Assembly (NCBI RefSeq): GCF_030929595.1
Contig: NZ_JAVFVR010000003.1
Coordinates: forward strand, 62,001-126,000
DNA: 64,000 bases
Source of the DNA: Flavobacterium sp. LHD-85
Lineage (GTDB): Bacteria; Bacteroidota; Bacteroidia; Flavobacteriales; Flavobacteriaceae
Direction of reading: 5' to 3'
In this document: piece by piece, positions 24,105-41,552 of the stretch
Layout: the number at the start of each line of letters is the position of its first letter
Position numbering within the stretch: the stretch's first letter is position 1
Position numbers and translations under genes: made by a program
Notes under the pieces: model-generated
The model's database searches: none
The model's input: the letters and a program-made list of their open reading frames with translations, nothing else
What the model was told of the DNA's origin: nothing

Positions 24105-25241
24105 ATGAAAATACCTGAAAATCTTAACCAGAAAATCGAATATAGAAAGAAGAATGATCTTTTTAGGAAACTCCCTGTTTTTACTAATTTGGTAGATTTT
24201 TCTTCAAATGATTATATCGGATTTTCTAAATCAGAAATTATTTTCAAGCACACTCATGCTTATTTATTGGAAAATGAAATGCTTCAAAATGGAGCAACTG
24301 GTTCAAGATTGATTACAGGAAACCATTCTCTTTATCAAATTGCCGAAAATTATATAGCGCAATTTCATGAGGCAGAAACTGCTTTAATTTTTGGTTCGGG
24401 ATATAATGCCAATTTGGGTTTTTTTAGTGCTGTACCGCAAGAAAATGATGTTGTTTTGTACGATGAATTATGTCATGCTTCAATAAAAGATGGAATTGCA
24501 ATGACGAGCGCTCAATCGCATCATTTTATCCATAATGATATTGAAGATTTGGAACGTCTTATCCTTAAATTCCCAACTACCAATATTTACATTGTAACAG
24601 AAACTGTTTTTTCGATGGATGGTGATAGTCCGAATCTCGAAGAACTGATTCAGCTTTCAGAAAAGTACCATTGTTATTTGGTTGCTGATGAAGCTCATGC
24701 TTTGGGGGTTTTTGGAGAAAAAGGAGAAGGCTTGACACAGTATTTGCAATTGCACGATCGTTTTTTTGCTCGAATAGTGACTTTTGGTAAAGGTTTAGGA
24801 TGTCAGGGCGCGGCTGTTTTAGGATCTGTAGAGCTAAAAGAATATCTTGTGAATTTTGCAAGAAGCTTTATTTTTAGTACAGGTTTGTCTCCGCATTCTG
24901 TTGCAACAATTTTTACAGCTTATCAGCAATTAGAAATTGAAAAAGAAACGAGAGAAAAGCTTCGTCAGAATATTGTGTTTTTTAATCAGCAGAAAAATTT
25001 GCTGGGTTTAAAACCAATGTTTGTTCATAGTAAATCTCCAATACATTCTGCTATAGTTCCAGGAAATGAAAATGTGAAAAAATTGGCGCAGGAGCTTCAA
25101 GATAAAGGATTTGATGTACAAGCGATCCTTTCGCCAATTGTTTCAGAGGGTCAGGAACGTCTGCGTTTTTGTATCCACAGTTATAATTCGCAGGAAGAAA
25201 TTAATCTGCTTTTAGAACTAGTTCGAGACTTTGTTTTTTAA
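24105..25241 (+). CDS. Alpha-oxoamine synthase, 8-amino-7-oxononanoate synthase-like (BioF family)
   Basis: A 378-residue PLP enzyme of the fold-type I alpha-oxoamine synthase group. Motifs are FSSNDYIGFSK, GATGSRLITGNH, the glycine-rich FGSGYNANLG, DELCHASIKDG, ETVFSMDGDSPNLEEL, VADEAHALGVFGEKGEG, and the Schiff-base Lys229 in TFGKGLGCQGA. This is closest to BioF, which joins pimeloyl-thioester and alanine in biotin synthesis. Other oxoamine synthases (KBL, serine palmitoyltransferase) share these motifs, and no bioD/bioA/bioB is adjacent here, so I leave the symbol open. A promoter lies almost at the ATG. Confidence 0.85.
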   Translation: MKIPENLNQKIEYRKKNDLFRKLPVFTNLVDFSSNDYIGFSKSEIIFKHTHAYLLENEMLQNGATGSRLITGNHSLYQIAENYIAQFHEAETALIFGSGYNANLGFFSAVPQENDVVLYDELCHASIKDGIAMTSAQSHHFIHNDIEDLERLILKFPTTNIYIVTETVFSMDGDSPNLEELIQLSEKYHCYLVADEAHALGVFGEKGEGLTQYLQLHDRFFARIVTFGKGLGCQGAAVLGSVELKEYLVNFARSFIFSTGLSPHSVATIFTAYQQLEIEKETREKLRQNIVFFNQQKNLLGLKPMFVHSKSPIHSAIVPGNENVKKLAQELQDKGFDVQAILSPIVSEGQERLRFCIHSYNSQEEINLLLELVRDFVF

Positions 25242-25345
25242 ATTCGGATTTTCTTCAAAATCCAAAATTTCAAAAAATAGTGAAGTTTTTTGTAACGTTT
25301 CGTTTATTCGATTACTTACAAGGTGTAATCAAATAAAAACTACTC

Positions 25346-26209
25346 ATGAAAACTAGATTTCAATTTATAATTACAATACTTGCACTTTTCTTTGTTTGTA
25401 CTATTTCTGCCCAGACAAAAACTTCAAAACTTGAAAATTCTCTTCTTTGGGAGATTTCAGGAAAAGGGCTTCAAAAACCTTCTTATTTGTATGGAACGAT
25501 TCATATGATTTGTTCTAAAGATTATTTTTTATCTGAAAAAGCCAAAAATGCTTTTGAGAAATCGGATAAATTGTTTTTAGAAATCAACTTTACAGATCCG
25601 AACGAAATGAGCCAAATGCAGCAATTGGCAATGGGAAAAGAACCTTTAAGTAAAAAGCTAACTTCAGAACAATTGGCTAAACTAGATTCAATTTTAAAAA
25701 AGAGTACTGGAATGTCGGTACAGCAAGTAGATAGTTTTAGTCTTTTGACTGTTTTGAGTTTGATTTCTATTAAAAGTTTTGGCTGTTTAGATTTAAAATT
25801 TTATGAAATGGAGTTGTCAGATGCAGCCAAAAAAAGAAATATCTCTATTGCTGGATTAGAATTTGTCAAGGCTCAATTTGAGATTCTTGAGAATGCTTAT
25901 TCTAATGATGAAATGCTGACACTTTTGGAAGAGTCTACTCCTGAAGAAACAGTTGAATTGGTCGATGCTTATAAAAATGAAAACATTGAAGCAATGTATG
26001 AGTTTAGCACAGATAAACGATTTACAAGTGAGAAAACTAAAAAGAAGATTCTTGACGATAGAAATTTAAACTGGGTAAAACAAATACCTGAGTTAGCAAA
26101 GCAAAATAGTGTTTTTATTGCTGTTGGAGCAGGGCATTTAGGAGGTGAGTTGGGAGTTATTAATTTATTGAGGAAAGAAGGATATACTGTAAAACCTGTA
26201 ATGAATTAA
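25346..26209 (+). CDS. TraB/GumN-family secreted protein
   Basis: The 287-residue protein has a signal peptide ending TISAQ, so it is exported. The TraB/GumN (Tiki-like) family signatures are visible: LYGTIHMI near the N-terminus, the FLEINFTDPNEM strand, and the C-terminal FIAVGAGHLGGELGVINLLRKEGY stretch with its Gly-His. Related proteins are putative metalloproteases; activity here is inferred from family only. The next gene, an ECF sigma factor, begins 7 bases after the stop and is probably co-transcribed. Confidence 0.88.
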   Translation: MKTRFQFIITILALFFVCTISAQTKTSKLENSLLWEISGKGLQKPSYLYGTIHMICSKDYFLSEKAKNAFEKSDKLFLEINFTDPNEMSQMQQLAMGKEPLSKKLTSEQLAKLDSILKKSTGMSVQQVDSFSLLTVLSLISIKSFGCLDLKFYEMELSDAAKKRNISIAGLEFVKAQFEILENAYSNDEMLTLLEESTPEETVELVDAYKNENIEAMYEFSTDKRFTSEKTKKKILDDRNLNWVKQIPELAKQNSVFIAVGAGHLGGELGVINLLRKEGYTVKPVMN

Positions 26210-26216
26210 ATCTGTT

Positions 26217-26720
26217 TTGAAAGAGAAAGAACATGAGTTTTTAAATCGGATGGAAAGCCATAAAGGAATTTTGCATAAAGTTTCTAAAATGTATATGGAT
26301 ACTTCCGATGATCAGCAGGATCTGTTTCAGGAGATTATATGCCAGCTTTGGAAATCGTATGATACTTTTCGGAATGAAAGCCAGTTTTCGACTTGGATGT
26401 ATAGAGTAGCAGTAAATACGGCAATTGTCTTTTTAAAGAAAGAAAAAAGGAAGGTGGATAAATATGAGATGCCTTCTGAGAATGTGAAAGAAGACGAAAG
26501 TGATTTCTATATAAAAGAAAGTCAACTGGATCATTTTTATAAAGCTGTGCAAAAATTAGAAAAAATCGATAAAGCCATCATTTTTTATCAGCTAGAAGGT
26601 TTCTCTCATAAGGAAATAGGAGAGAATTTAGGAATTTCTGAAGGGAATGCTAGGGTAAAATTAAATAGAGCTAAAGAAAAATTAAAAGAAATTATTAAAA
26701 ATCAGGGATATGGATTTTAA
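26217..26720 (+). CDS. ECF-type RNA polymerase sigma factor
   Basis: A 167-residue extracytoplasmic-function sigma-70 factor. Region 2 is recognisable (MDTSDDQQDLFQEIICQLWKS, QFSTWMYRVAVNTAIVFLKK) and region 4 is a helix-turn-helix (IIFYQLEGFSHKEIGENLGI followed by SEGNARVKLNRAKEKL). The frame opens with TTG at 26217, 7 bases after the TraB/GumN stop; an in-frame ATG at 26250 would cut 11 residues and still leave region 2 whole, so the exact start is uncertain. The last 11 bases overlap the following membrane-protein gene, suggesting a regulator pair. Confidence 0.92.
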   Translation: MKEKEHEFLNRMESHKGILHKVSKMYMDTSDDQQDLFQEIICQLWKSYDTFRNESQFSTWMYRVAVNTAIVFLKKEKRKVDKYEMPSENVKEDESDFYIKESQLDHFYKAVQKLEKIDKAIIFYQLEGFSHKEIGENLGISEGNARVKLNRAKEKLKEIIKNQGYGF

Positions 26721-27324
26721 CGATATACAAAATGCGTGGAATAACGAAAGACCCGAAAATGTTATTTTGCCAACAAATTTAGAAAAGATTCAATCTGCTA
26801 ATACGCCATTAGATAAAATTAGAAAAAACCTGAAGAATGAATTTGTGTATCAAATTGTATCTATGATTTTTCTCGGAACAATTCCAATAATTTGCCAGTT
26901 TAACTCGCAGATGTTTTTTTTATATTATTTAATTTACAGCTTGTTTTTAGCAGTTTGTGTGTATTATTTAGTAAAATTATATTTCTTTTTTAAAAGGCTG
27001 AATGCAACAACATTGAGAACAAAAGACAGTTTGTATGAGACGTATTTTGATATTAGACTGAATATGGAATTGTATAAAACATTTGGTTTTTCGCTAACGC
27101 CTTTCTTAGTTGTTTATTTATTGGGGTTCTATTTTTATGGCCTTTCCAAAACTTCTGGGTTCTTGAATTATGAGTTTTCTAACGGGCAATTATTTGGTCT
27201 TTTTGCCATCATTGTTTTTACAATACTTTGTATGGGAATTTCGTTAGAATGGTGGGTTCAAAAGTTTTATGGGAAATACGCCAAAGAGATAAAAAAGGTA
27301 ATTGACGAATTGAAAGAAGAATGA
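26710..27324 (+). CDS. Four-helix membrane protein, candidate anti-sigma partner
   Basis: A 204-residue protein that I do not recognise by family. It has a soluble N-terminus of about 45 residues (DFNDIQNAWNNERPEN, as in flavobacterial sigma-linked proteins) and four predicted membrane segments at about 48-66, 70-88, 135-152 and 162-182. It ends with a basic, charged tail. Its start overlaps the sigma-factor gene by 11 bases, so the two are translationally coupled, and a role as anti-sigma factor is a reasonable inference. No zinc-binding anti-sigma HxxxCxxC motif is seen. A terminator follows at 27333. Confidence 0.7.
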   Translation: MDFNDIQNAWNNERPENVILPTNLEKIQSANTPLDKIRKNLKNEFVYQIVSMIFLGTIPIICQFNSQMFFLYYLIYSLFLAVCVYYLVKLYFFFKRLNATTLRTKDSLYETYFDIRLNMELYKTFGFSLTPFLVVYLLGFYFYGLSKTSGFLNYEFSNGQLFGLFAIIVFTILCMGISLEWWVQKFYGKYAKEIKKVIDELKEE

Positions 27325-27362: not shown

Positions 27363-30300
27363 TTAGTTAAATATGATTTTTTTGTTGACTATATGACCAT
27401 TCTCTAGGATTACTTTTGCTAATAAAACCTGATTGCTAGAATATAAATTTTCAATTTTTAGTTCTTTGGAGTCAATTTTGTTCTTGTTGTAAAGCAATTG
27501 TCCACCCATAGTATAAATCTGTACTTCTTTAATATTTTCAGTTCCGCTGCTCACATTTATTACTTTTGATTTTGTGGCTACCAAGACTCCATTTGCTGTA
27601 TTTTCAAAATCATCAGTACCTAATGTTTTATTTGTGTAACGAAGAACAAAACGATCTGTAAAAGTTCCGATGGCAGTTTTGAAAGTATAATTTGAAGCTC
27701 TCAGGTCTGTTATAGTGCCTGTTGTTTTGTCTTCCAGATAAACGGCTTGCTGGCCAAAAAATCCATCTGCGTGATCTATCGAGATTGTAAGCTGAGTTTC
27801 GGCAACCGATTTATAGCCAAGAGGAATTCTTTCTGTATTGTCAAAAGGCAAACTTCTCGCTTGTATGGATAGCTTTTGTGCCTCATTGATGGTGTAGAAG
27901 TCTACATAAGAGTTTCCTGCCAATGCAACTGCATCATAATTGTAGTCGAAACTGTTTGTTGCCCCCTCTGCGTATCCGATCAATATTTGTTTGTATGCAT
28001 CTTCGGCATTGCTTAGGTTTAACCATAGGCGGTTTACTTCAATTGCAGCTTCTTTTGCTGTAGTTTTAAAAAATTGCGTATTCTGCGCTTTTATACGTTG
28101 CCCATTATTAAATTTAATTAAAGTAACTTTTGGTTTTATAAAGAAACCTTGCCCTACACCAATATATCCCGAAGGAGTCTCGCCTCCAGTTGTAGCTCTT
28201 GTTGCTCCAAGTAATGTGAATACTGCATAATCTGGGCTGCTGTATCTATAGGTAGTGGTTCCTTCTACTTTTTGAGGCAGCGACATATGCGTCCAGAAGT
28301 ATAATGCTCCAACATCTCCATTATCAATAATAAATTTTCGGCCATCGATAGCAGATGGGTAAGGGTTTCCGACAAGAAGATATTTATCTGCAGTAGTTGA
28401 AATTGGAACATCTCCATTATTAGGTGTTCCATAGAATTTTCCAGTAAAGTCAGCAGGGGCATCATTGCTGTAAGACTGTGGGCCTCTTATGCTATAACCT
28501 TTTCCAGGTAGCATTGTCATTGTTCCGTACAGATTCGTTGCCCACTTGAAATCAGAAGACCAATAGGAATATTTGTCAAATAAAGTTTCTGGAGATAAAG
28601 TATTCATTTTAAAATCTGGGTTGTCTACAGGCGATGACCAATACGTCAAGTCAAAACGGCGAATTTTGGTTGTTCTTTCTATTTGAAAAGCAGTACTGCT
28701 TCCAGTAAACATGTTTTTATTTGTTGATGTTTGAAGAAATGACCCGCCAGATTGAACAAGTAATTTCCCGCCAGTTCCTACGTTTATATTTTCATCAACA
28801 GTTAAAGTAATATCTTTTGGAACTGTTAATGTAATATTCGGATTTATGGTGCAAGAACAAACGGTAAGGTCTGAACTTAATACAATGTCAGATTTAATTA
28901 TAATTGAGCTATTAGCGCTAGGAGTTCCAGTTCCGTTGTAATCTGTTTCAATTTTAATAAAATTCAAATTCAGTCTTGCGCTTTGTTTATAATCTTTTAA
29001 ACGAATTTCAACTTTAGAATCTTTGCCTAGAGCTCTAGGACTGGTTAATATATTGTTTGCAGGAGCATTGTCGTTAATGTTTCCTGGTGATGTATAAACT
29101 GGAGTAGTCGCATTTTCGTCATCAATGAAAATTTGTACTTGGTCATCACAGTTCGTAATTTGTATCTGGTATGTTCCGCAAGGAAATCCTTGTCTTTTGT
29201 AAACCAAAGTAAAGTAATCTTGAGGCACAGGAGCTCCTTGCCATCCAGATGCAGCAGGATTAAAAGAAGGTGATTCTGCAAGAGCAAATGAATCTGTTGT
29301 GTTAATGTTTACAGGGTTTACGCTATAGTATCCAGCATAACTTCCTTGGGGAATTGTAAAATTATTGCCAGAAGCTGCCGTTGTAAATCCGTAAACTTTC
29401 CATAAATTATCCCCGAATGGGTAAGGCGCAGTATTGCTTCCTGCTATTAACCCCATAGAGAACTGTATTCTAGAATCGGTTGTTTTTTCGTAATATTCTA
29501 AGTCAAAAGTATATTCTACTCCAGCTGTCAATTGCATATTTACTGCCTTTTGAGAATAATTTACACCAGACCATTGATCAATTATTATGGTAGTTCCGGA
29601 AGCTGTAGTTAAATACAAACGATAATAATCGTCACCTCCAACAGTGATATTGTAAGTGCCCGTTACATCAACTTTGGCTTTCATTTTATAGCGAACAAAG
29701 AAATAGTCTGAAGGAGTTTCGCACAATTGTGCATTTAACCCAGTAACAGTTCCTTGTACAATATCGCGATTAAATAGTTTGTTTTCTTCAACTTGTCCAA
29801 TATAGGTCATGTTTGAAATCGGAATGGTAGTAGGCGTTGCAGGATTTGGGTCTGCAGGAGTGCCAGTTGGTGGCAAAGTTGTTGTTTTATACACATATCC
29901 GATCCATTTATTATCTCCGTATTTAATTTGGTCACCTGGATTGCAAACAGGTGCTGTAGCATTAACAGTTACAGTAGCAGAAGAATAATTAGAATTAGTG
30001 TTTTTAAGAGTGTATGTAAATGTTGCAGATCCAGCAAAATTTGCTGCTGGTGTAAAGGTTACATTGTTAAGGCCGTTTACAGTTACAGTGCCATTACTAG
30101 GTTGTGTTACCGTTATGGCTTCTAGAGGATAACCACCAATAACATCATTATCTAAAATAGGAATGGTTACAGCCTGATTTGATGGAGTTGAAACAACATC
30201 GTTCTTTGCTGTTAAGGTAAAAACATCTTCTATTGTTCCTGTGATTACTGGGCCTTCAGGACTTCCATTACCATTTTTAATTTCAAAAGTATTGTAGCTA

Positions 30301-31637
30301 GCATAAACATAAAATCTAATGTACAAAGTTTCTCCAGGCGATAAAGTGTTTAGGCCTGATGCGATATTATTAGTTAACGGCGTCCATGATGAGGCAGCAT
30401 TACTTTCTGGTATTAATGTCTGAGCACCACTTGTAAAATCTGAATTCTTAGAATATTTTACTAGAAACTTTTGATTCTTTCCTCTGTAAGTAAAATTAAA
30501 TTGTTTAAGATTTAATTTGTGTTTAGAATCGGGTGCGATTTTAAATTGAATATACTTAGTTTCGTCTGCTGTATTTACAACATTAGGGTTATTAGAAGGA
30601 GTAGGCCAGCCGTTAGTTTCAAAAAATGCATTATTTATGTTATGAAATGTATAATTTAAACTTATGTTAGTGCCCGCTTTTGTAATTGGAGAGTTCGGGT
30701 CTACATATTGTTTGGTTACGGGATTAAAAGTATCATCGGCTCCATCCCAAAGCGATAGAAACTCTGTTGTGTCTTGATTTACTGTTACTTTTATGGATCC
30801 TGTAGATGTTTCCGTTGCATTTGAGATGGTGTAGTTGAAAACAGAAGTACCAATAAATCCTGCAGCAGGGTTAAAAGTTATAGTTTTATCAGGATTAAGT
30901 ATCGCTGTTCCTTCGGCAGCAGATGGAGGTGTAGAAATGACTAAAGTGTTTACGTTGGCTTTGTTTACGTCATTGCTTAGCGGATTTATATTAACTGCTA
31001 CATCTTTTGTAGTGGTAACGTAATCGTTGATAGCTAATATTTTAGTAGCATCAAAGCTTAATACTTCACCATTGATGGTAGGTACAACATTATTGATTCC
31101 AGTTCTAATTTGGAAGTCATTATTAGTGTAATAAGCATAAATTCTAATATAAACTTTTTCAGTAGGTAAAACAGGGTTTATTTCTTCAGAAAAATTCAAT
31201 GTGTATTGTATCCAATCACTCGTAACTGATGTTGCTGTAAGAAGATTATAAACACCAGATGAGAAATCAGATTGTTTAGAGTATTTAATTGTATATTTTT
31301 GAGAACCTGGAGATTTACACTCAAAAACGAATGTGCTTAAATTTACCTTGCTTCCTGTTTTAGGCCCCAGAGCAAATTGTACATATTTTGTCAGATCATA
31401 TTGGCCACCTTTGTTTAGAGGTGTTGGCCAGCCACTACTCTTAAAAAAAGTATTAGCAGCATTGTTAGAGTCGTATAAATTACTTACAGTTGCTGATAAA
31501 TCATAACCGTTAATTGTTCCTACTAATGGAACAGGAGCATATCTATTGCCAGAATCTGCTGCGTCCCATTTTACTAAAGCAGTTTGAGCAAATCCAAAAA
31601 AAGGCAATAATAAGAATAAAAGTAGAGTTTTTTTCAT
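27363..31637 (-). CDS. Giant secreted protein with cadherin-like and PA14-like domains and a T9SS type C sorting signal (cargo 1)
   Basis: The 1424-residue product has a signal peptide ending FFGFAQ. Ectodomain: two copies of a roughly 170-residue unit (about 18-195 and 290-475, each with a WPTP and KYIQF/KYVQF motif and a KYSK-x-SDF stretch), each followed by a cadherin-like/Ig domain of the NDV type (PLSNDVNKAN, ILDNDVIGGY). A PA14-like domain follows at about 580-740. Residues about 990-1345 are a module shared with three neighbouring genes (RRFDLTYWSSP, LSPETLFDKYSYW, LLVGNPYPSAIDG, YFWTHMSLP, RFVLRYTNKTLG). The last 80 residues are a T9SS type C sorting signal ending NKKIIFN. It is likely a surface adhesin exported by T9SS. 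DNA for the shared module is nearly identical to that of cargo 2 in inverted orientation. Confidence 0.88.
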   Translation of the reverse strand: MKKTLLLFLLLPFFGFAQTALVKWDAADSGNRYAPVPLVGTINGYDLSATVSNLYDSNNAANTFFKSSGWPTPLNKGGQYDLTKYVQFALGPKTGSKVNLSTFVFECKSPGSQKYTIKYSKQSDFSSGVYNLLTATSVTSDWIQYTLNFSEEINPVLPTEKVYIRIYAYYTNNDFQIRTGINNVVPTINGEVLSFDATKILAINDYVTTTKDVAVNINPLSNDVNKANVNTLVISTPPSAAEGTAILNPDKTITFNPAAGFIGTSVFNYTISNATETSTGSIKVTVNQDTTEFLSLWDGADDTFNPVTKQYVDPNSPITKAGTNISLNYTFHNINNAFFETNGWPTPSNNPNVVNTADETKYIQFKIAPDSKHKLNLKQFNFTYRGKNQKFLVKYSKNSDFTSGAQTLIPESNAASSWTPLTNNIASGLNTLSPGETLYIRFYVYASYNTFEIKNGNGSPEGPVITGTIEDVFTLTAKNDVVSTPSNQAVTIPILDNDVIGGYPLEAITVTQPSNGTVTVNGLNNVTFTPAANFAGSATFTYTLKNTNSNYSSATVTVNATAPVCNPGDQIKYGDNKWIGYVYKTTTLPPTGTPADPNPATPTTIPISNMTYIGQVEENKLFNRDIVQGTVTGLNAQLCETPSDYFFVRYKMKAKVDVTGTYNITVGGDDYYRLYLTTASGTTIIIDQWSGVNYSQKAVNMQLTAGVEYTFDLEYYEKTTDSRIQFSMGLIAGSNTAPYPFGDNLWKVYGFTTAASGNNFTIPQGSYAGYYSVNPVNINTTDSFALAESPSFNPAASGWQGAPVPQDYFTLVYKRQGFPCGTYQIQITNCDDQVQIFIDDENATTPVYTSPGNINDNAPANNILTSPRALGKDSKVEIRLKDYKQSARLNLNFIKIETDYNGTGTPSANSSIIIKSDIVLSSDLTVCSCTINPNITLTVPKDITLTVDENINVGTGGKLLVQSGGSFLQTSTNKNMFTGSSTAFQIERTTKIRRFDLTYWSSPVDNPDFKMNTLSPETLFDKYSYWSSDFKWATNLYGTMTMLPGKGYSIRGPQSYSNDAPADFTGKFYGTPNNGDVPISTTADKYLLVGNPYPSAIDGRKFIIDNGDVGALYFWTHMSLPQKVEGTTTYRYSSPDYAVFTLLGATRATTGGETPSGYIGVGQGFFIKPKVTLIKFNNGQRIKAQNTQFFKTTAKEAAIEVNRLWLNLSNAEDAYKQILIGYAEGATNSFDYNYDAVALAGNSYVDFYTINEAQKLSIQARSLPFDNTERIPLGYKSVAETQLTISIDHADGFFGQQAVYLEDKTTGTITDLRASNYTFKTAIGTFTDRFVLRYTNKTLGTDDFENTANGVLVATKSKVINVSSGTENIKEVQIYTMGGQLLYNKNKIDSKELKIENLYSSNQVLLAKVILENGHIVNKKIIFN
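27601..28670 (-). repeat. Long inverted repeat, left copy (C-terminal module of cargo 1)
   Basis: This block reads, on the minus strand, nearly the same as 36208-37286 on the plus strand. Comparing line by line, the 900 bases 27601-28500 differ at about 30 sites (about 97% identity), with one uninterrupted identical run of about 160 bases. The match fades towards 28670 and stops sharply at 27600, right after the codons for LGTDDFEN. Confidence 0.9.
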
Positions 31638-32045
31638 GTTAAATGTTTTTTATCAATTTGTTATGCTGGCATAGGACTTCCGAACCAAACAAAGGTATAT
31701 ACATTTACGAGCTCAATCTTGGCGCGGTTTTGAGAACCCCCATATAATCGATGAACTAAAAAAATACTCGATGAAGCACATTAAAAATTTTAATGTTAGA
31801 CAAATATTCTTATAAAATGCTTGATGTTATTATAAGAATATTTGTGTTAAATTAAATTTTTTAAGACTGTTTTTTGAAATTTTAGACTGAAAAACGTCTA
31901 GTTGGTTGTAAAAACTACAAAAAGGGAATATTTTATAACGAAAAGTTGTTATGATTTTTGCAGTATTTTAATGCAATTTTAAAGGGAAATGAATGCTTTA
32001 GGAAAGCATAGGAGAAAACTTTTTTTTAAGAGAGAATAAGCAGGT
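31638..32045. other. Intergenic region between cargo 1 and recX
   Basis: A 408-base gap. It contains the cargo 1 promoter and its short leader. The remainder (31740-32045) is AT-rich with no open frame, RNA or convincing hairpin that I can support. CTCGATGA/ATCGATGA-like words recur at 31746-31780. Confidence 0.4.
31690..31716 (-). promoter_or_regulatory. Candidate promoter of cargo 1
   Basis: On the minus strand TTG (31716-31714), 16 bases, then TACCTTTG (31697-31690), 52 bases before the ATG at 31637. Confidence 0.5.
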
Positions 32046-32528
32046 TTATTTTTCTTCTAGATCTTTAACTTTTTCGTAAACAAGATTGCTCTCATAACCT
32101 CTTCGCAACATATAGTCGCAGAATTTTTTGCGCTTTTTAAGTTGGTTAGGTTCAGAAATGCTATTCCAACATCTTTCTGATAAGTTTTCGAAAGTTTCGA
32201 AATATTCTTCGGCGGAAATTTCTTTCAAAGCCAAGGTAATATTCGTTGATGAAATGTTTCTTAGCTTAAGTTCATTTGTGATTCTAATTTTACCCCAATG
32301 TTTAATTCGGTGTTTGCCTCTCGCAAAGCTACAAGCAAAACGGGTTTCGTTTAGAAAATTTCCTTCAATAAGCTGTACGACAATACTGTCAATCTCGTCA
32401 CGAGTCATTTTTAGGTCATATAATTTTGAAACTACTTCATCATGACAACGCTCTTGATAGGCACAAAAATGCTCTAACTTTTGTAAAGCTTCTTTGATGG
32501 TGAAAGTATTATTCGTGGGGTTTTTCAT
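32046..32528 (-). CDS. recX: RecX-family regulatory protein
   Basis: A 160-residue all-helical protein of the RecX family, which binds and inhibits RecA filaments. It shows the three repeats of the family: FTIKEALQKLEHFCAYQERC followed by EVVSKLYDLKM, then FLNETRFACSFARGKHRIKHWG, a hallmark RecX segment, and IRITNELKLR, ending in YMLRRGYESNLVYEKVKDL. Length is normal. recA is not nearby. It lies alone between two divergent giant cargo genes and inside the segment bounded by the long inverted repeat. Confidence 0.92.
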   Translation of the reverse strand: MKNPTNNTFTIKEALQKLEHFCAYQERCHDEVVSKLYDLKMTRDEIDSIVVQLIEGNFLNETRFACSFARGKHRIKHWGKIRITNELKLRNISSTNITLALKEISAEEYFETFENLSERCWNSISEPNQLKKRKKFCDYMLRRGYESNLVYEKVKDLEEK

Positions 32529-32620
32529 TCGTTTTAACGTTTAAATTAAAAAATTCGCCAGTTGTTATAAATTAATTCTAAAATTTGTTAATGTTTTATA
32601 AAAAGAAATAAATTATAACC

Positions 32621-32650
32621 TTGTGTATTAGGCTAATTTAAATATTTTTG
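32621..32650 (+). promoter_or_regulatory. Promoter of cargo 2
   Basis: TTG (32621-32623), 19 bases, TATTTTTG (32643-32650), a near-ideal match, giving a leader of about 155 bases before the ATG at 32812. Confidence 0.6.
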
Positions 32651-32811
32651 TACGGAATTTTAACATTTGAAATTATGACCTAAGATGTCAGAATTTAACA
32701 TTTTAAGGTTCAGATAATTACTAAAAAGAACATTGTTCTTTTTTTGGAAAAAATGCCATTTTTTGCTTTAAGCAAACCAAAAACAAATTTAAAACAAATA
32801 CCTACTGTTAT

Positions 32812-35800
32812 ATGATGAGAAAATTACTTTACTCGTTTTTACTAATATTTTTTTATTCTTCTTCTTTTGCCCAGATTGTATTCACAGATAATACTCCAGG
32901 TACACGAAGTTGGGCAGTTCCACAAGGTGCTACCGAAGTTACCGTTGAAATATGGGGTGCTGGTGGAGCTGGTGGAGGTTCGAGAAATAATAATGTTGGT
33001 GGTAGCGGCGGCGGCGGCGGCGGTTATTCTTTAAAGACATTTTCAGTAACAGCTGGTCAAAATATTAATTACACTATTGGGAGTGGTGGAACTGGAAGTA
33101 CTAGTAATGGAACTGTTGGAAGTGCGACATCGCTAACTTATACAGCTTCAAATTCGCTTGTGGCTAATGGAGGAGGACGAGGTCTTCAAGATAATGATAC
33201 AACTGCTGGCGGAGCTGGTGGTACAGCAACAGGTGGATCAACTAATTTGAGAGGCGCAAACGGAAATGATAGTAGTACAATTGGAGGAAATGGTGGCAAT
33301 AGTGGGAATACTTCAAATACTGGAGGTATAGGAAGAGCAAATGCTAACGGAGAAAATGGAATTATACCTGGCGGCGGCGGCGGCGGCGGCGAAAGAAACG
33401 GTAACAACAATCGATCGGGAGGAGATGGTGCAAATGGGCAAGTAAGAATTACATATACTCCAAGTTATCAATACCAAATTATATCTTCAAATACTGGATC
33501 TACAACATGGTGTGCAGGAGAAACCAGAAATGTTTCAGTTACTATAAAAAATACTGGTTCGAAGGCTTGGACAGATACGCCTTCGGCAGATTTTAATATT
33601 GGAATAAAGTGGAATACCAATGGCACGAGTTGGACTGATTATAATGTAAGAGTCGATGCTGGAAATTTGGCTCCGGGTGATACTAAAACATACATTTTTA
33701 CAATTACTGCAGCCAATAGTGGAGGTGCAACAAACGGTACTCCTTTAGCGGCAGGAATAAATAATCTTACTTTTGATGTTGTGTATGAGCTAGTCGCTTG
33801 GTTTGGAGATAATCATAACGGAGTAGGGCCAGGTAATGCTGTACTAAAAACGGGAGATCAAACTATAGTAGCAACGCCAGCAAATAAGACTATTGCAGCG
33901 ACAGCTTCAACAGTTTGCTCAGGTTCAGGTACAACTATTACTGTTGCTAATTCAGAAGTTGGCGTTAATTATCAATTAAGAAATGCAAGTAATGCTAATG
34001 TAGGAACCCCAGTTGCCGGTTCAGGCGGAGTTATTAGTTTGCCTACAGGTAATTTAACGACAGCTACTACTTTTAATGTATTAGCGACATTAACTTGTGG
34101 AAATTCGGCACAAATGACAGGTACTGCTACAGTAAACGTAAGTCAACTCCCTACATCAGCTAATGCTGGTCCAGATCAAACAGGAAATTATACTTTTTTT
34201 ACATTGGCAGCTAATACCCCTACGGTTGGTACAGGAGCTTGGTCAGTAGCTAGCGGACCAAATACTTCGGCAGGTCAATTTAATAGTGTTTCTAGCCCAA
34301 CAAGTAGATTTACTCCTGCGGTTTCTGGAACATATGTTTTGAATTGGACAATAAGTAATGGTAGTTGCACATCTACGGATCAAGTAATCATTTCGACTTG
34401 TATTAGCAATTTAATAAAAAACGGTGATTTTAGTAGAGGAACGGAGGATTGGTCTAGAGCAACTACAAAAGGATCCTATGTTGAAGTCTATGACGAAAGT
34501 GTTTATTTTTCAAATGGAAATAATGATATTACTGCAGAATTGGATTCACAGGCTTCATTAGGACAAAATGTAGCCGTTGTTCCGGGGGTTCCTTATACTT
34601 TAAGTTTTCTTTACGCTCGAAGACCAGGATCTTCACCTACTACTGCACTTGATTTTAAAATTATAGATGGATCAAATACCACATCAAGAAATTTTACAAC
34701 TAGTGATACTACTAACACACCAGTATTTTTTAGTTTTCCATTTACACCGACAAGCTCATCAATATGGATTGAATTTTACAATTCTCTAGAAACCACTACT
34801 CTTGGGACGATTATTGATAATATTGTTTTGATTCCGAGTTCGCAAGTGGTTCCAATTGCTACGACAACGCCTAAAGGGAATTATAAAACGTTAGAAGCTT
34901 GTGAAGGAGTGCCTATTCAATTAGATGTTGAGAATGTTTCGGCAAGTGGTGTAACTTATTCTTGGACGAGTACAACTCCAGGAGTGACATTTTCGTCAAC
35001 TACTGCTAAAAATCCAACAATAACTTGTACAGGAACAGGAATTAAGAATGCAACAGTTGTGGTAACCACTGCAGGTGGATGTTCAAGTACTGCTTCTACG
35101 ACATATGTTAATATAAAAGCTGCCCCAATAGTTTATAATGTGACAGGGGGAGGATCTTACTGTATTGGTGATACTGGAGTTGCTGTCGGTCTCTCTAGTT
35201 CAACTACAGGGGTAAGCTATCAATTGAAATTGAATGGAAATGATAGTGGAAGTCCTATGTCTGGAACAACAGGATCGGCAATTAATTTTGGATTAAAGAC
35301 AACAGCGGGTACTTATACTGTAGTTGCTACTAATGCATCTCCAAATAGTTGTGCTTTAAATATGAACGGAAGCGCTGTAATTACTATAGATCCAGTTTCT
35401 GTTGGAGGAAGCGTTTCTGGTAGTACAACAGTTTGTTCAGGAACCAATAGTACTACTTTGACATTAAGTGGTCATACAGGATCAGTTACAAAATGGCAAT
35501 CTTCACCATCGAGTAATTTTTCACCAGTTACTGATATTCCTAATTCTGCGAATACATCTTTAGTAGTAGATAATTTGACAGCAACTACTTATTATAGAGC
35601 TGTGGTTAAAAGTGGTTCATGTTCTACTGCTGATAGTGGTACGGGAACAATAACTGTAAATCCAAGACCTACAGCCCCAACAATTACAAAAAACAACGAT
35701 GTAGCTTGTAATACTTTAGGAAGTATTACAATTACAGATCTATCAGGAAATTGGACTGTTAAAAGAACAGGTGTAACAACTCTGCCAAAAGATTACCCAG

Positions 35801-37530
35801 GATCAGGTAATTCTTTAGATATCCATGATTTAGTAGCAGACACTTATAGTTTTACTGTTACAAACGACTTAAATTGTACTTCAAATTCAGCGACGATTAC
35901 CATAGCTGATACTAGTTCTAATACAGATTGGGGACCTACAGGATGGACAAATGGGGAACCTGATGGAAGCAAAAGTGTTACGATTTCGTCTTTAGCAAAT
36001 GGTCAGCCTTTTTCACTGGCTAAGCCAAATATAACAGCATGTTCTTTAACAATTACAGTTGGATCAGATGTAATTATCCCATCGGGAGTAACTTTGGAAA
36101 TCACAAATAAGGTAACAAGTAATGGTAAATTGGTGTTTGAGAGCGGCTCAAGCTTAGTACAAACCACCAATGTGCAAAATAGTGGAGATATTGTATATAA
36201 AAGAGAAACCAAAATTCGTCGTTTTGATTTGACGTATTGGTCAAGTCCTATTACTTCAACGAAACAAGATGGTTTTATGATGAAAGATTTATCTCCGGAA
36301 ACTTTATTTGACAAATATTCCTATTGGTCTTCTGATTTCAAGTGGGCAACCAATCTGTATGGTACTATGGAAATGAAACCTGGGAAAGGCTATAGCATTA
36401 GAGGCCCGCAGTCTTACAGCAATGATGCCCCTGCTGACTTTACTGGAAAATTCTATGGAATACCTAATAATGGAGACGTTCCAATTTCAACTACTGCAGA
36501 TAAATATCTTCTTGTCGGAAACCCTTACCCATCTGCTATCGATGGCCGAAAATTTATTGCTGATAATGGAGATGTTGGAGCATTATACTTCTGGACGCAT
36601 ATGTCGCTGCCAAAAAAAGTAGACGGAACCACTACCTATAGATACAGCAGCCCAGATTATGCAGTATTCACATTACTTGGAGCAACAAGAGCTACAACTG
36701 GAGGCGAGACTCCTTCGGGATATATTAGTGTAGGGCAAGGTTTCTTTATAAAACCAAAAGTTACTTTAATTAAATTTAATAATGGGCAACGTGTAAAAGC
36801 AGAGAATTCACAGTTTTTTAAAACTACAGCAAAAGAAGCTGCAATTGAAGTAAACCGCTTATGGTTAAACCTAAGCAATGCCGAAGATGCATACAAACAA
36901 ATATTGATCGGATACGCGGAAGGCGCAACAAACAGTTTCGACTACAATTATGATGCAGTTACATTAGCTGGAAACTCTTACGTAGACTTCTATACCATCA
37001 ATGAGACACAAAAGCTATCCATACAAGCGAGAAGTTTGCCTTTTGACAATACAGAAAGAATTCCTCTTGGCTATAAATCGGTTGCCGAAACTCAGCTTAC
37101 AATCTCGATAGATCACGCAGATGGATTTTTTGGCCAGCAAGCCGTTTATCTGGAAGACAAAACAACGGGCACTATAACAGACCTGAGAGCTTCAAATTAT
37201 ACTTTCAAAACTGGCATCGGAACTTTTACAGATCGTTTTGTTCTTCGTTACACAAATAAAACATTAGGTACTGATGATTTTGAAAACCTTGAGAATAGTG
37301 TTATGGTTTCAGTAAAAAACAAAATAGTAAATATTACTTCTTCTAAAGAAACAATTAAAGAGGTAAATATTTTTGATGTAGGAGCGCAATTGTTATACAG
37401 CAAGAATAAAGTAAATTCTTCTGAATTGCAGATTACTAATTTGCGTTCTAGCGATCAGGTTTTGTTAGTTAAAATAACGCTAGAAAACGGGTCTACAATT
37501 ACTAAAAAAGTGATTTTTTCAAATTTGTAA
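32812..37530 (+). CDS. Giant secreted glycine-rich/Ig/CBM-like protein with T9SS type C sorting signal (cargo 2)
   Basis: The 1572-residue product has a signal peptide ending SSSFAQ; an ATG one codon later (MRKLL) is equally possible. Residues about 25-215 are a glycine-rich domain (VEIWGAGGAGGG, two poly-Gly tracts encoded by GGC runs). A region with CARDB/NBR1-like pattern follows (VSVTIKNTGSKAW), then several Ig/PKD-like domains and a CBM4-like segment at about 533-685 (NLIKNGDFSRGTEDW). Residues about 1133-1491 are the module shared with the neighbouring cargo genes, and the last 80 residues are a T9SS type C sorting signal (LENGSTITKKVIFSNL end). It is probably an adhesin or biofilm protein on the cell surface. 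Promoter at 32621-32650. Confidence 0.88.
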   Translation: MMRKLLYSFLLIFFYSSSFAQIVFTDNTPGTRSWAVPQGATEVTVEIWGAGGAGGGSRNNNVGGSGGGGGGYSLKTFSVTAGQNINYTIGSGGTGSTSNGTVGSATSLTYTASNSLVANGGGRGLQDNDTTAGGAGGTATGGSTNLRGANGNDSSTIGGNGGNSGNTSNTGGIGRANANGENGIIPGGGGGGGERNGNNNRSGGDGANGQVRITYTPSYQYQIISSNTGSTTWCAGETRNVSVTIKNTGSKAWTDTPSADFNIGIKWNTNGTSWTDYNVRVDAGNLAPGDTKTYIFTITAANSGGATNGTPLAAGINNLTFDVVYELVAWFGDNHNGVGPGNAVLKTGDQTIVATPANKTIAATASTVCSGSGTTITVANSEVGVNYQLRNASNANVGTPVAGSGGVISLPTGNLTTATTFNVLATLTCGNSAQMTGTATVNVSQLPTSANAGPDQTGNYTFFTLAANTPTVGTGAWSVASGPNTSAGQFNSVSSPTSRFTPAVSGTYVLNWTISNGSCTSTDQVIISTCISNLIKNGDFSRGTEDWSRATTKGSYVEVYDESVYFSNGNNDITAELDSQASLGQNVAVVPGVPYTLSFLYARRPGSSPTTALDFKIIDGSNTTSRNFTTSDTTNTPVFFSFPFTPTSSSIWIEFYNSLETTTLGTIIDNIVLIPSSQVVPIATTTPKGNYKTLEACEGVPIQLDVENVSASGVTYSWTSTTPGVTFSSTTAKNPTITCTGTGIKNATVVVTTAGGCSSTASTTYVNIKAAPIVYNVTGGGSYCIGDTGVAVGLSSSTTGVSYQLKLNGNDSGSPMSGTTGSAINFGLKTTAGTYTVVATNASPNSCALNMNGSAVITIDPVSVGGSVSGSTTVCSGTNSTTLTLSGHTGSVTKWQSSPSSNFSPVTDIPNSANTSLVVDNLTATTYYRAVVKSGSCSTADSGTGTITVNPRPTAPTITKNNDVACNTLGSITITDLSGNWTVKRTGVTTLPKDYPGSGNSLDIHDLVADTYSFTVTNDLNCTSNSATITIADTSSNTDWGPTGWTNGEPDGSKSVTISSLANGQPFSLAKPNITACSLTITVGSDVIIPSGVTLEITNKVTSNGKLVFESGSSLVQTTNVQNSGDIVYKRETKIRRFDLTYWSSPITSTKQDGFMMKDLSPETLFDKYSYWSSDFKWATNLYGTMEMKPGKGYSIRGPQSYSNDAPADFTGKFYGIPNNGDVPISTTADKYLLVGNPYPSAIDGRKFIADNGDVGALYFWTHMSLPKKVDGTTTYRYSSPDYAVFTLLGATRATTGGETPSGYISVGQGFFIKPKVTLIKFNNGQRVKAENSQFFKTTAKEAAIEVNRLWLNLSNAEDAYKQILIGYAEGATNSFDYNYDAVTLAGNSYVDFYTINETQKLSIQARSLPFDNTERIPLGYKSVAETQLTISIDHADGFFGQQAVYLEDKTTGTITDLRASNYTFKTGIGTFTDRFVLRYTNKTLGTDDFENLENSVMVSVKNKIVNITSSKETIKEVNIFDVGAQLLYSKNKVNSSELQITNLRSSDQVLLVKITLENGSTITKKVIFSNL
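33007..33024 (+). repeat. GGC trinucleotide tract 1 in cargo 2
   Basis: Five GGC codons followed by GGT encode six consecutive Gly. Such a GC-only run stands out in this AT-rich DNA and is in frame. Confidence 0.85.
33370..33390 (+). repeat. GGC trinucleotide tract 2 in cargo 2
   Basis: Seven perfect GGC codons in a row encode seven Gly within the glycine-rich domain; slippage would change length by whole residues. Confidence 0.9.
36208..37286 (+). repeat. Long inverted repeat, right copy (C-terminal module of cargo 2)
   Basis: Partner of 27601-28670. The nearly identical core is 36387-37286 (about 30 differences in 900 bases). This copy is 9 bases longer, because of three extra codons after the RRFDLTYWSSP motif. 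Both copies are in the same reading frame of their genes. Confidence 0.9.
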
Positions 37531-37682: not shown

Positions 37683-40600
37683 TTGATTAAAAACTTATTT
37701 TACTCATTAATCCTAATTTCACTATCTGCTCAAACTGTTTTTTCGCAGCAAGGTAAAGTAGACAGTTCTTTTAATGTTCTCGACGATGGACAAATTGGCG
37801 ATGGATTTGATGGTACGGTAAGGACACTTCTTCTTCAGCGTGATGGAACTTTACTCGTGGGAGGTGACTATTTGAATTTGAATGGAACACCAGCGTCATA
37901 TCTTACCCGTTTAAATTTAGACGGTTCTATAGATGAAAGTTTCGATACTGGGACAGGTTTTAATGGTAAAATTTATGCTTCTTGTTTACAGTCAGATGGG
38001 AAAATTATAGTTGGCGGAAACTTTACAAGCTATAACGGAATTAGTGCGGGAAGAATAATCCGTCTAAATGAAGATGGTTCTTATGATGCGACTTTTAATA
38101 CAATAATTGGAGCAACTACAGGAATTGTTTATGATATTGTCTTGCAGCCTGATGGGAAGATAATTATTGTTGGAAGTTTTACAAAGTATAATAATAGTAC
38201 AGTAAACAGAGTGGCACGTTTATTACCAAACGGAACACTCGATTCTACTTTTTTAACAGGTTCTGGATCTGCATTAAACGTTACACATGCAAAAGTTTTA
38301 TCAGATCAGAAAATACTTCTCACAGGCAATTTTTCAGCATTTAATGGTGTTTCTGCTAATCGGATAATTCGACTAAATGCTAATGGAACTTTTGATTCTA
38401 CTTTCAATATCGGTACAGGTTTTAATGATGATGTTAATGCCATAGCCTTACAGTCTGATGGGAAAATGGTTTTAGGAGGTAACTTCACGCTTTTTAATAC
38501 AGTTGTAGCAAATAGAATTATTCGATTGAACGAGGATGGAACTAAAGATGAAAGTTTTGTAACGGGTTCTGGCTTTAGTAAAGAAGGAGTTTCAACAATT
38601 AGAATTAATAAAAATGGTGATATCATGGTTGGAGGATCCTTTACAGGATTTTACAATGGCACAGAAGCAGTAAGATTAATTCTTCTCCAATCTGATGGAA
38701 GTATAAAACCTAATTTTGATATTGGCTCTGGGCCTGCTTCTGCTTCAGTTTTTGCTTTAGAATTTGATGAAGAAGATTCTTGGTTTGCTGGAGGTTCTTT
38801 CACTGTTTTTAATGGTCAAAATCAAGGGAGATTGGTGAAAATTAGTACCGATGGCGAACATGACATTTCATATTTGGCTTCTGGTATTGGATTTGATAAT
38901 TCTGTTCTTAGTGTTCTTCCGCTTCCCAATAGAAAGATAATTGTGGGAGGCAATTTTAAAAAATTTAATGGAAATGTCACTCCCAAAATTGCTTGTCTTT
39001 TAGAAAACGGAATGATTGATCCTGCTTTTAATACTACGGGAAGCAATAATCTAGTAAAAACTACAGTATTGCAAACCGATGGAAAGATTGTTTTAGGAGG
39101 TAATTTTACAAAATATAATGACCTAATTAATAATCGCATTGTTAGGATTTTTCCAAATGGTGAAATTGATAATTCTTTTAGCTGTGGAGATGGATTTAAT
39201 GCACAAGTTTATACATTGGCAATTCAATCCGATCAAAAAATAATTGCGGCAGGATCATTTACAAAGTATAAAGGATCAACAGTTAATGCCAATAAAATTA
39301 CAAGAATACTGCCAGACGGAACAAAGGATCCAGATTTTAATATTGGCTCAGGAGCCGATGATACTGTTGAAAGCTTGGTTTTGCAATCGGATGGGAAGAT
39401 TTTGGTAGGAGGACATTTTAAAACTTTTAATGGATTCCCTTGTGCAGGTTTAGTAAGGTTGAATCCAGATGGAAGTATTGACACAAATTTTAATATCGGG
39501 AATGGCTTTGATAAATATGTGTATACAATTGCATTACAATCTGATAACAAGATTATTGTTGGAGGTTCTTTTTTGGTTTTTAATAACAATTCACAAAGAA
39601 AAATTATCCGATTAAATAGTGACGGTAGTTTTGATGGGACATTTAATTCTGGTGCGGGTTTTAGCAAAGGAGATGTTAGAACTATTCTAGTACAGCCAGA
39701 TGACAGAATTTTGGTGGGAGGATCTTTTTCAGGAACCTATAATACTATTCCTTCTTCTAGATTTATTCGTTTACTGCCTTCAGGATCGTATGATAATTCT
39801 TTTGCAGTACCATTAAATAATGCACTGTTAGCAATGAAATTTGATGAAGATTATAAATTGATAATTGGAGGAAATTTTAACTCCGTTTCTGGTATTTCAA
39901 AACATAGAATTGCTCGTTTAAAGTTTTGTGTTAATACAACAATTTGGAACGGAACTTCATGGTCAAATGGGTTTCCTTCTGCAGGAAAAGATGTTTATTT
40001 TAAAGAAAATTTTCCCAATTTGACGACAGCTAATATTTGCGGCTGTACTATCGAAAAAGGAAAAACAGTCACATTACTTGAAAATAACACACTCAGTATT
40101 GAGTTTTCTTATACGGGTGAAGGAATACTTGTTTTAGAAAATTCTGCTAGTTTGTATCAAGATGACGATGATATTGTAAATACCGGAATTGTTCATGTAA
40201 AAAGAAAAACAAAGCCAATAATTAGATTCGATCTCACCTATTGGTCTTCTCCAGTGGCTGATATGAAATTATTCGAATTTTCGCCTGAAACACTTTTCGA
40301 TAAATATTCCTGGTATGATCCGATTGCAGGATGGAAAACAAATCTTAATGGAAGTATGACTATGATTTCTGGAAATGGATATAGCGTTAGAGGTCCACAA
40401 AGTTTTTCTACTGTAGAAAGAGCAGTATTTGAAGGTGTTTTTAAGGGAATTCCAAATAATGGTAAAATAGAAGTTGAGTTTATTGCTGCAGATCGATTTT
40501 ATTTAGTAGGCAATCCATATCCGAGCGCCATAAGCGCAGATGATTTTTTAAGAGAGAATGCTCCAAAAACAAAAGGGGCGCTATATTTTTGGACACATAA

Positions 40601-41552
40601 TACGCCACCTAGAATTACTACACCAGGTACTACTACCTATCGTTATAGCAACGATGATTTTGCAGTTTATAATTTATTAGGTGGCGTTGGTACAAGTGCA
40701 GCTTTAAGCTCTGGAGTGAATAATGATACACCTGATGGCATAATCGCATCGGGACAAGGTTTTTTTGTGAAAAGTAATCAAACTGGATATCTAGAGTTTA
40801 ACAATAACATGAGAGTTCGGGATCAAAACACCTCTTTTTTTCGTCCAGCTTTGAATACACAATTGAAATCTGCTTACGAAAAGCACAGGTTTTGGTTGAA
40901 CATTAAAAATAATGAAAATGAATTTAAACAAATTCTGTTAGGCTATGCAGTTGGCGCCTCCAATTCTTTAGATTTAAATTATGATGCAGAATATTTAAGT
41001 TCAAGTATGTCATTAGATTTTTATAGTATAGTTGAAAATAAAAAATTGATAATTCAAGGTCGGGAATTGCCTTTTTTAGAAAACGATTCAATTTTTATAG
41101 GTTATAAAACTATTGTTAAGGATAATTTCAAAATTGAAATAGATCATCAAGATCAATTTTTTAATGATAAGCCTATTTTTTTAGTGGATAAAGAATTAAA
41201 TAGAACGCATAATCTTTCTGAAGGACCATATCAGTTTGATTCTGAAATAGGCACTTTTAATAATCGTTTCTCAATAACTTACATTAATAAAGCTTTGGGA
41301 AATAAAACTTTTGAAAAGAATTCAAATAACGTTTTAATTTCGGTTAGAAACCGAACGATAAATATTGAATCTGATAAAGAGAGCCTGAAAGAGGTGATAA
41401 TATTTGATGTTTCTGGGAATCAATTGTATAGGAGAGATAAGCTTGAAACTAAAAATCTGTCGATTCAAAACTTGTTTTCTTCGCATCAGGTTTTAGTGGT
41501 AAAAGCCATTTTTGAAAATGGAAAATCAACTTCAAAAAAGGTTATTTTCTAA
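37683..41552 (+). CDS. Secreted Delta-60-repeat protein with T9SS type C sorting signal (cargo 3)
   Basis: The 1289-residue protein opens with TTG (no in-frame ATG precedes the signal peptide, which ends TVFSQ). Residues about 35-740 hold 14 Delta-60 repeats of about 51 residues, each with a core like LQSDGKIIVGGNF and a later RLNxDGSxDxxF; these probably make one or two beta-propellers. Residues about 848-1205 are the shared module (RFDLTYWSSPV, FSPETLFDKYSW, YLVGNPYPSAISA, YFWTHNTPPR), and the C-terminus is a T9SS type C sorting signal ending KKVIF. It starts about 150 bases after cargo 2 and is transcribed the same way, but has its own -7 element. It is likely surface-bound; function is unknown. 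Confidence 0.88.
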   Translation: MIKNLFYSLILISLSAQTVFSQQGKVDSSFNVLDDGQIGDGFDGTVRTLLLQRDGTLLVGGDYLNLNGTPASYLTRLNLDGSIDESFDTGTGFNGKIYASCLQSDGKIIVGGNFTSYNGISAGRIIRLNEDGSYDATFNTIIGATTGIVYDIVLQPDGKIIIVGSFTKYNNSTVNRVARLLPNGTLDSTFLTGSGSALNVTHAKVLSDQKILLTGNFSAFNGVSANRIIRLNANGTFDSTFNIGTGFNDDVNAIALQSDGKMVLGGNFTLFNTVVANRIIRLNEDGTKDESFVTGSGFSKEGVSTIRINKNGDIMVGGSFTGFYNGTEAVRLILLQSDGSIKPNFDIGSGPASASVFALEFDEEDSWFAGGSFTVFNGQNQGRLVKISTDGEHDISYLASGIGFDNSVLSVLPLPNRKIIVGGNFKKFNGNVTPKIACLLENGMIDPAFNTTGSNNLVKTTVLQTDGKIVLGGNFTKYNDLINNRIVRIFPNGEIDNSFSCGDGFNAQVYTLAIQSDQKIIAAGSFTKYKGSTVNANKITRILPDGTKDPDFNIGSGADDTVESLVLQSDGKILVGGHFKTFNGFPCAGLVRLNPDGSIDTNFNIGNGFDKYVYTIALQSDNKIIVGGSFLVFNNNSQRKIIRLNSDGSFDGTFNSGAGFSKGDVRTILVQPDDRILVGGSFSGTYNTIPSSRFIRLLPSGSYDNSFAVPLNNALLAMKFDEDYKLIIGGNFNSVSGISKHRIARLKFCVNTTIWNGTSWSNGFPSAGKDVYFKENFPNLTTANICGCTIEKGKTVTLLENNTLSIEFSYTGEGILVLENSASLYQDDDDIVNTGIVHVKRKTKPIIRFDLTYWSSPVADMKLFEFSPETLFDKYSWYDPIAGWKTNLNGSMTMISGNGYSVRGPQSFSTVERAVFEGVFKGIPNNGKIEVEFIAADRFYLVGNPYPSAISADDFLRENAPKTKGALYFWTHNTPPRITTPGTTTYRYSNDDFAVYNLLGGVGTSAALSSGVNNDTPDGIIASGQGFFVKSNQTGYLEFNNNMRVRDQNTSFFRPALNTQLKSAYEKHRFWLNIKNNENEFKQILLGYAVGASNSLDLNYDAEYLSSSMSLDFYSIVENKKLIIQGRELPFLENDSIFIGYKTIVKDNFKIEIDHQDQFFNDKPIFLVDKELNRTHNLSEGPYQFDSEIGTFNNRFSITYINKALGNKTFEKNSNNVLISVRNRTINIESDKESLKEVIIFDVSGNQLYRRDKLETKNLSIQNLFSSHQVLVVKAIFENGKSTSKKVIF

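Follow-up and report, generated by a model that had tools for sequence, protein, structure and literature searches.

Likely gene conversion at a C-terminal module shared by two RemA/RemZ-related genes of Flavobacterium, and probable occasional inversion of the recX segment between its copies

Two divergent genes of Flavobacterium sp. LHD-85 carry, near their 3′ ends, near-identical copies of one sequence that form an inverted repeat around a recX-like gene. The repeat corresponds to a C-terminal module common to two RemA/RemZ-related, predicted-secreted proteins; we consider it probable that gene conversion keeps its copies alike and that they occasionally let homologous recombination invert the recX segment. 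The DNA analysed here (the window, 64,000 nucleotides) comes from a genome of 5.6 Mb that, among named organisms, is closest to species of Flavobacterium. It contains the following features:

24105..27324, plus strand: conserved flank F, used as orientation marker (aminotransferase, TraB/PrgY/gumN-family protein, sigma-70-like factor and a small ORF without Pfam match)
27363..31637, minus strand: cargo 1 (1424 residues), with an Ig/cadherin-like and PA14 ectodomain, the shared module and sorting tail T1
27366..27629, minus strand: tail T1, position-specific
27630..28679, minus strand: cargo-1 module (arm 1), probable donor type in the conversion
27721..27880: longest exact shared run (160 nt), arm-1 copy
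32046..32528, minus strand: recX-like gene between the arms, the survey anchor (PF02631, E = 6.6e-12; PF21981, E = 3.8e-6)
32812..37530, plus strand: cargo 2 (1572 residues), with a Gly-rich and DUF642-like ectodomain, the shared module and sorting tail T2
36199..37257, plus strand: cargo-2 module (arm 2), replaced by a cargo-1-type module
37007..37166: longest exact shared run, arm-2 copy
37258..37527, plus strand: tail T2, position-specific
37683..41552, plus strand: conserved flank R, used as orientation marker (cargo 3, a DUF5122 beta-propeller cargo)
42004..46800, plus strand: cargo 4, RemZ-like (RemZ, E = 3.9e-235), with a more distant copy of the module

Cargo 1 and cargo 2 are transcribed away from the recX-like gene that lies between them, and the products of both share the same order of parts: a hydrophobic, signal-peptide-like N-terminus (read by eye), a variable ectodomain, a module of ~350 residues and a tail of 88-90 residues. 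The recX-like gene belongs to a family of RecA regulators; all of its NCBIfam RecX matches fall below the cut-off.

The inverted arms (27555-28614 and 36273-37332) extend over 1,060 nt at 94% identity, with an additional 44-nt extension, and are 7,658 nt apart, which bears out the near-identical inverted repeat of ~1.07 kb reported in a preliminary description of this DNA. The same holds for its count of about 30 differences in a 900-base core, for its identical run of about 160 bases and for its placement of both arms in the same frame of their genes: a codon alignment of the arm core yields 27 differences in 855 bases, with 14 synonymously differing codons and both arms in frame, and the longest exact run is 160 nt. 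Its statement that the last ~80 codons of the two genes share almost nothing has to be corrected, as the tails are 58% identical in protein and both match the sorting-domain model. When the module was searched against the DNA of its own genome, four matches were returned, all within this cluster; the two other than the arms reach only 75% and 66%.

A profile built from 25 modules with their tails found two sequences in the PDB, RemA and RemZ. Residues 900-1423 of cargo 1 match RemA (8gl6_D, E = 7.4e-141), and cargo 1 matches RemZ with E = 5.4e-137. The best stretch of cargo 2 comprises residues 868-1570 and matches RemZ (8gl8_D, E = 4.3e-180), while residues 1010-1569 match RemA (E = 1.9e-159). 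These best stretches form the C-terminal part of the cargos, and judged by sequence both proteins are related to RemA/RemZ in their C-terminal third. The tails of cargo 1 and cargo 2 score 48.4 and 53.3 bits against NF033708 (cut-off 40), and we predict that the two proteins are cargos of type IX secretion (T9SS) with a RemA-type C-terminal domain. NCBIfam labels the window tails type C; the tail of RemZ is called Type A in PMC10994853, and that of RemA Type A in PMC12618676. An AlphaFold model of module plus tail is of mediocre quality (mean pLDDT 65.4), and Foldseek returned two matches to it at E ≤0.001, both covering the tail alone (the C-terminal domains of RemA and RemZ).

The window cargos are like RemA (Fjoh_0808, a gliding adhesin) and its homologue RemZ (Fjoh_0803) of Flavobacterium johnsoniae in sharing the same C-terminal module and tail, ~440 residues in all. 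The ectodomains, however, differ from that of RemA, since the best matches begin at residue 900 in cargo 1 and at residue 1010 in cargo 2, and no Pfam lectin domain is present. RemA is described as an adhesin with a lectin domain that is involved in gliding (PMC12618676). According to Pfam, neither cargo 1 nor cargo 2 contains the ectodomain lectin domain expected of a RemA orthologue, and the lectin match of the G175 cargo R1 is absent from both. G175 is one of the genomes in which the recX segment is inverted (arm identity 96%). Its right-hand cargo, a protein of 1436 amino acids, aligns to RemA (8gl6_D) from residue 1 to 1436 with 3,204 bits, and the displayed part of the alignment is identical. 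Because of this end-to-end alignment, G175 is very likely an F. johnsoniae genome, and the RemA gene of F. johnsoniae very likely carries one of the arms.

The high identity of the arms, taken alone, would also be expected if the cargo-2 module were part of a freshly duplicated gene. We reject such a recent duplication as extremely improbable, because relatives have a cargo-2 gene with a T2-type tail at the same place; the gene has thus long been at this position, and it is the module that has changed. The cargo-2 module (M2) has only 65-68% DNA identity to the same position in 12 of 15 relatives, those in which it aligned (in 6 of the 12 the alignment spans just 34-63% of the module; G049, G269 and G362 gave no alignment), while the adjacent T2 has 74-83% in the same 12; M2 has thus been replaced by a cargo-1-type module. 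The two window modules, M1 and M2, are 81.0% and 78.6% identical to the cargo-1 module of G256, versus 63.1% and 63.5% to its cargo-2 module. The replacement of M2 is common to the window genome, F. tagetis and F. tyrosinilyticum, and is not found in the other relatives. Within these three genomes the arms are 94.1%, 92.5% and 96.5% identical, respectively, and the window arms are 86.8-90.1% identical to either module of the other two species; in a module tree the window arms pair with each other, as do those of F. tyrosinilyticum, but not those of F. tagetis.

The high identity of the window arms stops sharply, the tract starting near 28.6 kb and ending near 27.6 kb (arm-1 coordinates), and both sister species have similar edges. 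A tract with its edges inside otherwise orthologous genes is what gene conversion would leave. The tails have kept to their positions: cargo-1 tails of 8 named relatives (L070 was left out of this comparison) are 74-93% identical to T1 and 56-62% to T2, and cargo-2 tails of 9 named relatives are 71-87% identical to T2 and 52-59% to T1. From these alignments, conversion at the module appears nearly certain. The gene conversion between the arms that was claimed earlier is hence well supported, by the replacement of M2, by arms that are nearest to each other, by the tract edges, and by the concerted evolution of arms across the genus described below. Most of the ectodomain of cargo 1 (29001-31637) has a separate affinity, being 95% identical in DNA to that of G405, versus 67% for the module, 77% for the tail and 74% for the cargo-3 propeller. 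Such a pattern points to a passage of ectodomains, too, from one species to another, the joint lying close to the module.

To survey the genus, we used recX as an anchor. A match was found in 375 of 398 genomes. Of the 76 genomes that ranked best, 74 were analysed, namely the window genome and 73 others; the remaining two, G306 and G252, have recX ~300 bases from the end of a contig and were passed over. In 47 of the 74 loci recX is enclosed by a full inverted module pair. Pairs involving partial modules were excluded from the pair statistics; G269, G414 and G054 thereby each lost near-identical inverted pieces, and G274 lost a same-side piece (89.6%, 653 nt). Identities were scaled down where the alignment was shorter than 1 kb. 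On this basis, identity of at least 85% is reached by 16 of 91 full inverted pairs (14 of 47 genomes), compared with 2 of 45 same-side pairs (2 of 40 genomes; Fisher p = 0.034 on pairs, kinship ignored). Where a genome has both kinds, the best inverted pair is the closer one in 30 of 37 cases. A same-strand pair that spans recX in G335 (92.6%) falls in neither class.

Of the 21 full inverted pairs with at least 80% identity, 19 (in 16 of 18 genomes) consist of arms that are more alike than either is to any full module from the other species sampled. The arms of G351, for example, have 98.2% identity to each other versus 69.4% to the nearest module of another species; the exceptions are G385 and G249, in each of which the arms resemble modules of the other's species more than they resemble one another. 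On the rpoBC tree, the homogenised state (85%) undergoes 10 changes. These comparisons support the view that other Flavobacterium species gained near-identical arms independently.

Recombination between modules in direct orientation may also have left a trace. The ectodomain of a G042 cargo (locus L082) aligns over 1,232 residues with the inner cargos of G362 (66% identity) and G372 (70%), while its tail is closer to the outer cargos of these two genomes (78-79%) than to the inner ones (61-62%). The G042 gene would thus combine an inner-cargo ectodomain with an outer-cargo tail, as would be expected after a deletion between modules in direct orientation. Such recombination removes a gene, which may be why direct repeats are rarer. 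Among the contigs examined, six ends lie inside modules (G379, G147, G414 twice, G343 and G054); in two genomes only, G414 (L095) and G054 (L114), does the module at the contig end have a near-identical module piece (98-99.5%) elsewhere on that contig.

The orientation of the recX segment was scored relative to the flank F genes and, at the opposite end, the propeller cargo, the ancestral orientation being taken from the majority. It is normal in 48 of the 74 genomes including the window (31 with both flanks), inverted in 7 and unscored in 19, so that 7 of 55 scorable genomes are inverted (G304, G175, G118, G222, G351, G283 and G358). Six of these seven show both flanks, G222, G351 and G283 once the loci had been extended, and G358 shows one. 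The orientation is also normal in four named species beyond the 74 (F. ustbae, F. tistrianum, F. tagetis and F. tyrosinilyticum). The comparison with related genomes proposed in the preliminary description does, then, reveal the opposite arrangement. The inversion between arms that it envisaged gains support as an evolutionary event in other species but not for the present one, in which the segment has the majority orientation and each ectodomain carries its expected, unswapped tail. No inverted form of the window species was seen; there is no same-species strain among the best 120 of 3,630 matches to module plus tail (top match 91%), and a further search gave no usable strain variants among 120 of 194 matches listed.

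The inversion state changes six times on the rpoBC tree, which comes from a quick search and is not optimal (a better likelihood was obtained with G175 and G222 held together), and five times on the recX tree, where four changes are forced by well-supported branches. A single clade of the seven inverted genomes is rejected by AU tests with p = 2.9e-79 (rpoBC) and p = 1.05e-5 (recX). The count of independent inversions could be smaller if the locus was transferred between species. Evolutionary inversion at the recX locus is, in our estimate, very likely.

All seven inverted segments contain recX and are bounded on both sides by module-bearing genes. The arms also tend to be closer in inverted genomes (7 versus 37 genomes, Mann-Whitney p = 0.0035, kinship ignored), with an independent-pair test of arm identity against inversion giving a median p of 0.5 from too few informative pairs. 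Both features speak against a reading in which the modules undergo conversion only and the inversions seen elsewhere are rare rearrangements that owe nothing to them. We regard this reading as quite unlikely. It would account for the window, whose orientation and tail pairing are the common ones, and for the finding that, among the 14 normal genomes whose modules reach 75% identity in protein, 13 have tails of less than 80% identity, as if conversion stopped at the module edge without surviving crossover products. Tails at least 80% alike occur in 5 of 6 inverted genomes versus 1 of 14 normal ones (Fisher p = 0.0022, kinship ignored). Inversion may be tolerated when the tails are interchangeable, or the tails may have been converted later. 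A tail test for breakpoints was correct in 37 of 39 and 37 of 40 cases on normal genomes, and gave scores near ties for most inverted genomes, in which it placed no breakpoints inside modules. Arms of at least 80% identity are present in 12 of 37 normal genomes, and G283 is inverted though its arms are only 72% identical, so that near-identity of the arms is unneeded today.

Some of the draft assemblies end inside a module, as G414 does at both ends with 98% identity, and collapsed repeat reads might in principle have set the likeness or the orientation of the arms. An assembly artefact of this kind is nonetheless very improbable, given that differences are found all along the window arms, where exact runs do not exceed 160 nt, and that the single-contig genomes G351, G175 and G283 are all inverted.

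We propose that homologous recombination at the modules mostly results in conversion and occasionally in inversion. The agent would be RecA-type homologous recombination, with crossovers inside the modules, or inside modules and tails. In the window, such an inversion would turn ~7.6 kb and, in addition, part of each arm, leaving each ectodomain fused in frame to the ~90-residue sorting tail of the other gene. Conversion, inversion and apparent deletion could in this way be explained by a single process. The 'ectodomain-swapping' of the preliminary description goes too far: each ectodomain would be rejoined in frame, but from the geometry it keeps its own upstream region, and only about the last 90 residues would be exchanged, plus any near-identical portion of the module beyond the crossover.

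As both upstream regions, with the putative promoters, lie inside the segment, neither gene should be silenced by inversion. With little more than the tails changing places, the segment would not act as an on/off switch, and a promoter switch of that type is ruled out by the geometry, each gene keeping its upstream region. We also set aside a site-specific inverton; no recombinase, specifically none of the integrase, resolvase or invertase families, occurs among the Pfam matches for 39 ORFs out of the 50 listed in the window.

An exchange of tails could in principle matter, because the C-terminal domain dictates the localisation of chimeric cargos in F. johnsoniae (PMC12618676). In that study, most exchanges were cross-class, between SprB (Type B) and RemA or AmyB (Type A), and the RemA and AmyB domains, both Type A, differed in outcome when fused to SprB. 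This directing role of C-terminal domains, the recurrence of inversion across species and the concerted arms would all suit phase or antigenic variation of a programmed kind. In this more far-reaching version of the explanation given above, inversion would be frequent within populations and selected for re-pairing ectodomains and tails. We consider such a programme unlikely: no dedicated recombinase was found among the Pfam matches of those 39 ORFs, and geometry leaves both genes with their upstream regions, so that the tails alone would change. A wider proposal, put forward tentatively and with considerable doubt, is that the remA-type locus is a genus-wide adhesin-shuffling island. In it the conserved module, adjacent to the export signal, would serve as recombination joint, conversion would maintain the inverted copies as interchangeable, inversion would re-pair ectodomains and sorting tails, new ectodomains would arrive through deletion between direct repeats and through exchange across species, and the recX gene within the inverting segment would tune the recombination by which that segment moves.

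In the sap locus of Campylobacter fetus, the shared part is at the 5′ end of the genes, and one promoter is moved, which determines the choice of the expressed gene; in the window, by contrast, the shared part lies near the 3′ end. What the proposed mechanism has in common with sap (PMC5634654) is inversion between surface-protein genes, there of the surface layer and linked to antigenic variation. The vpma locus of Mycoplasma agalactiae is alike in combining inversion with hybrid surface-protein genes, but relies on the site-specific recombinase Xer1 and a single promoter (PMC5634654). Within the same genus, F. psychrophilum has type IX-linked adhesin genes as inverted repeats with inversion between isolates; this inversion, however, measures ~1.9 Mb, the repeats are 10 kb long with three genes (adhesin/PorP-SprF), and the genes are different ones (PMC5808330).

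A literature search found no report of inversion or conversion at the RemA locus among the matches listed (titles and the starts of abstracts), most subscription papers being beyond its reach. Each part of the proposal is of a known kind, and their combination at this locus is absent from the literature among those matches. If recurrent conversion and inversion do rearrange the genes of flavobacterial gliding adhesins, ectodomains and export tails would be interchangeable parts, orthology assigned between species would be misleading, and F. johnsoniae, a laboratory model that is not pathogenic, would offer a direct test bed for the diversification of adhesins by homologous recombination alone.

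Further features of the window deserve mention. Cargo 4 contains four direct repeats of ~300 nt (43084-44268), of which the other three are 67-83% identical to the reference copy. The cargo cluster is adjoined by a reprolysin-like metallopeptidase with a Por secretion tail (48702-51371). At 7904-9265, 18 kb from the nearer arm, a protein matches the KaiC/AAA, zinc-ribbon, ChlI and Lon_C families of Pfam, a domain make-up that we take to be that of the homologous-recombination protein RadA/Sms.
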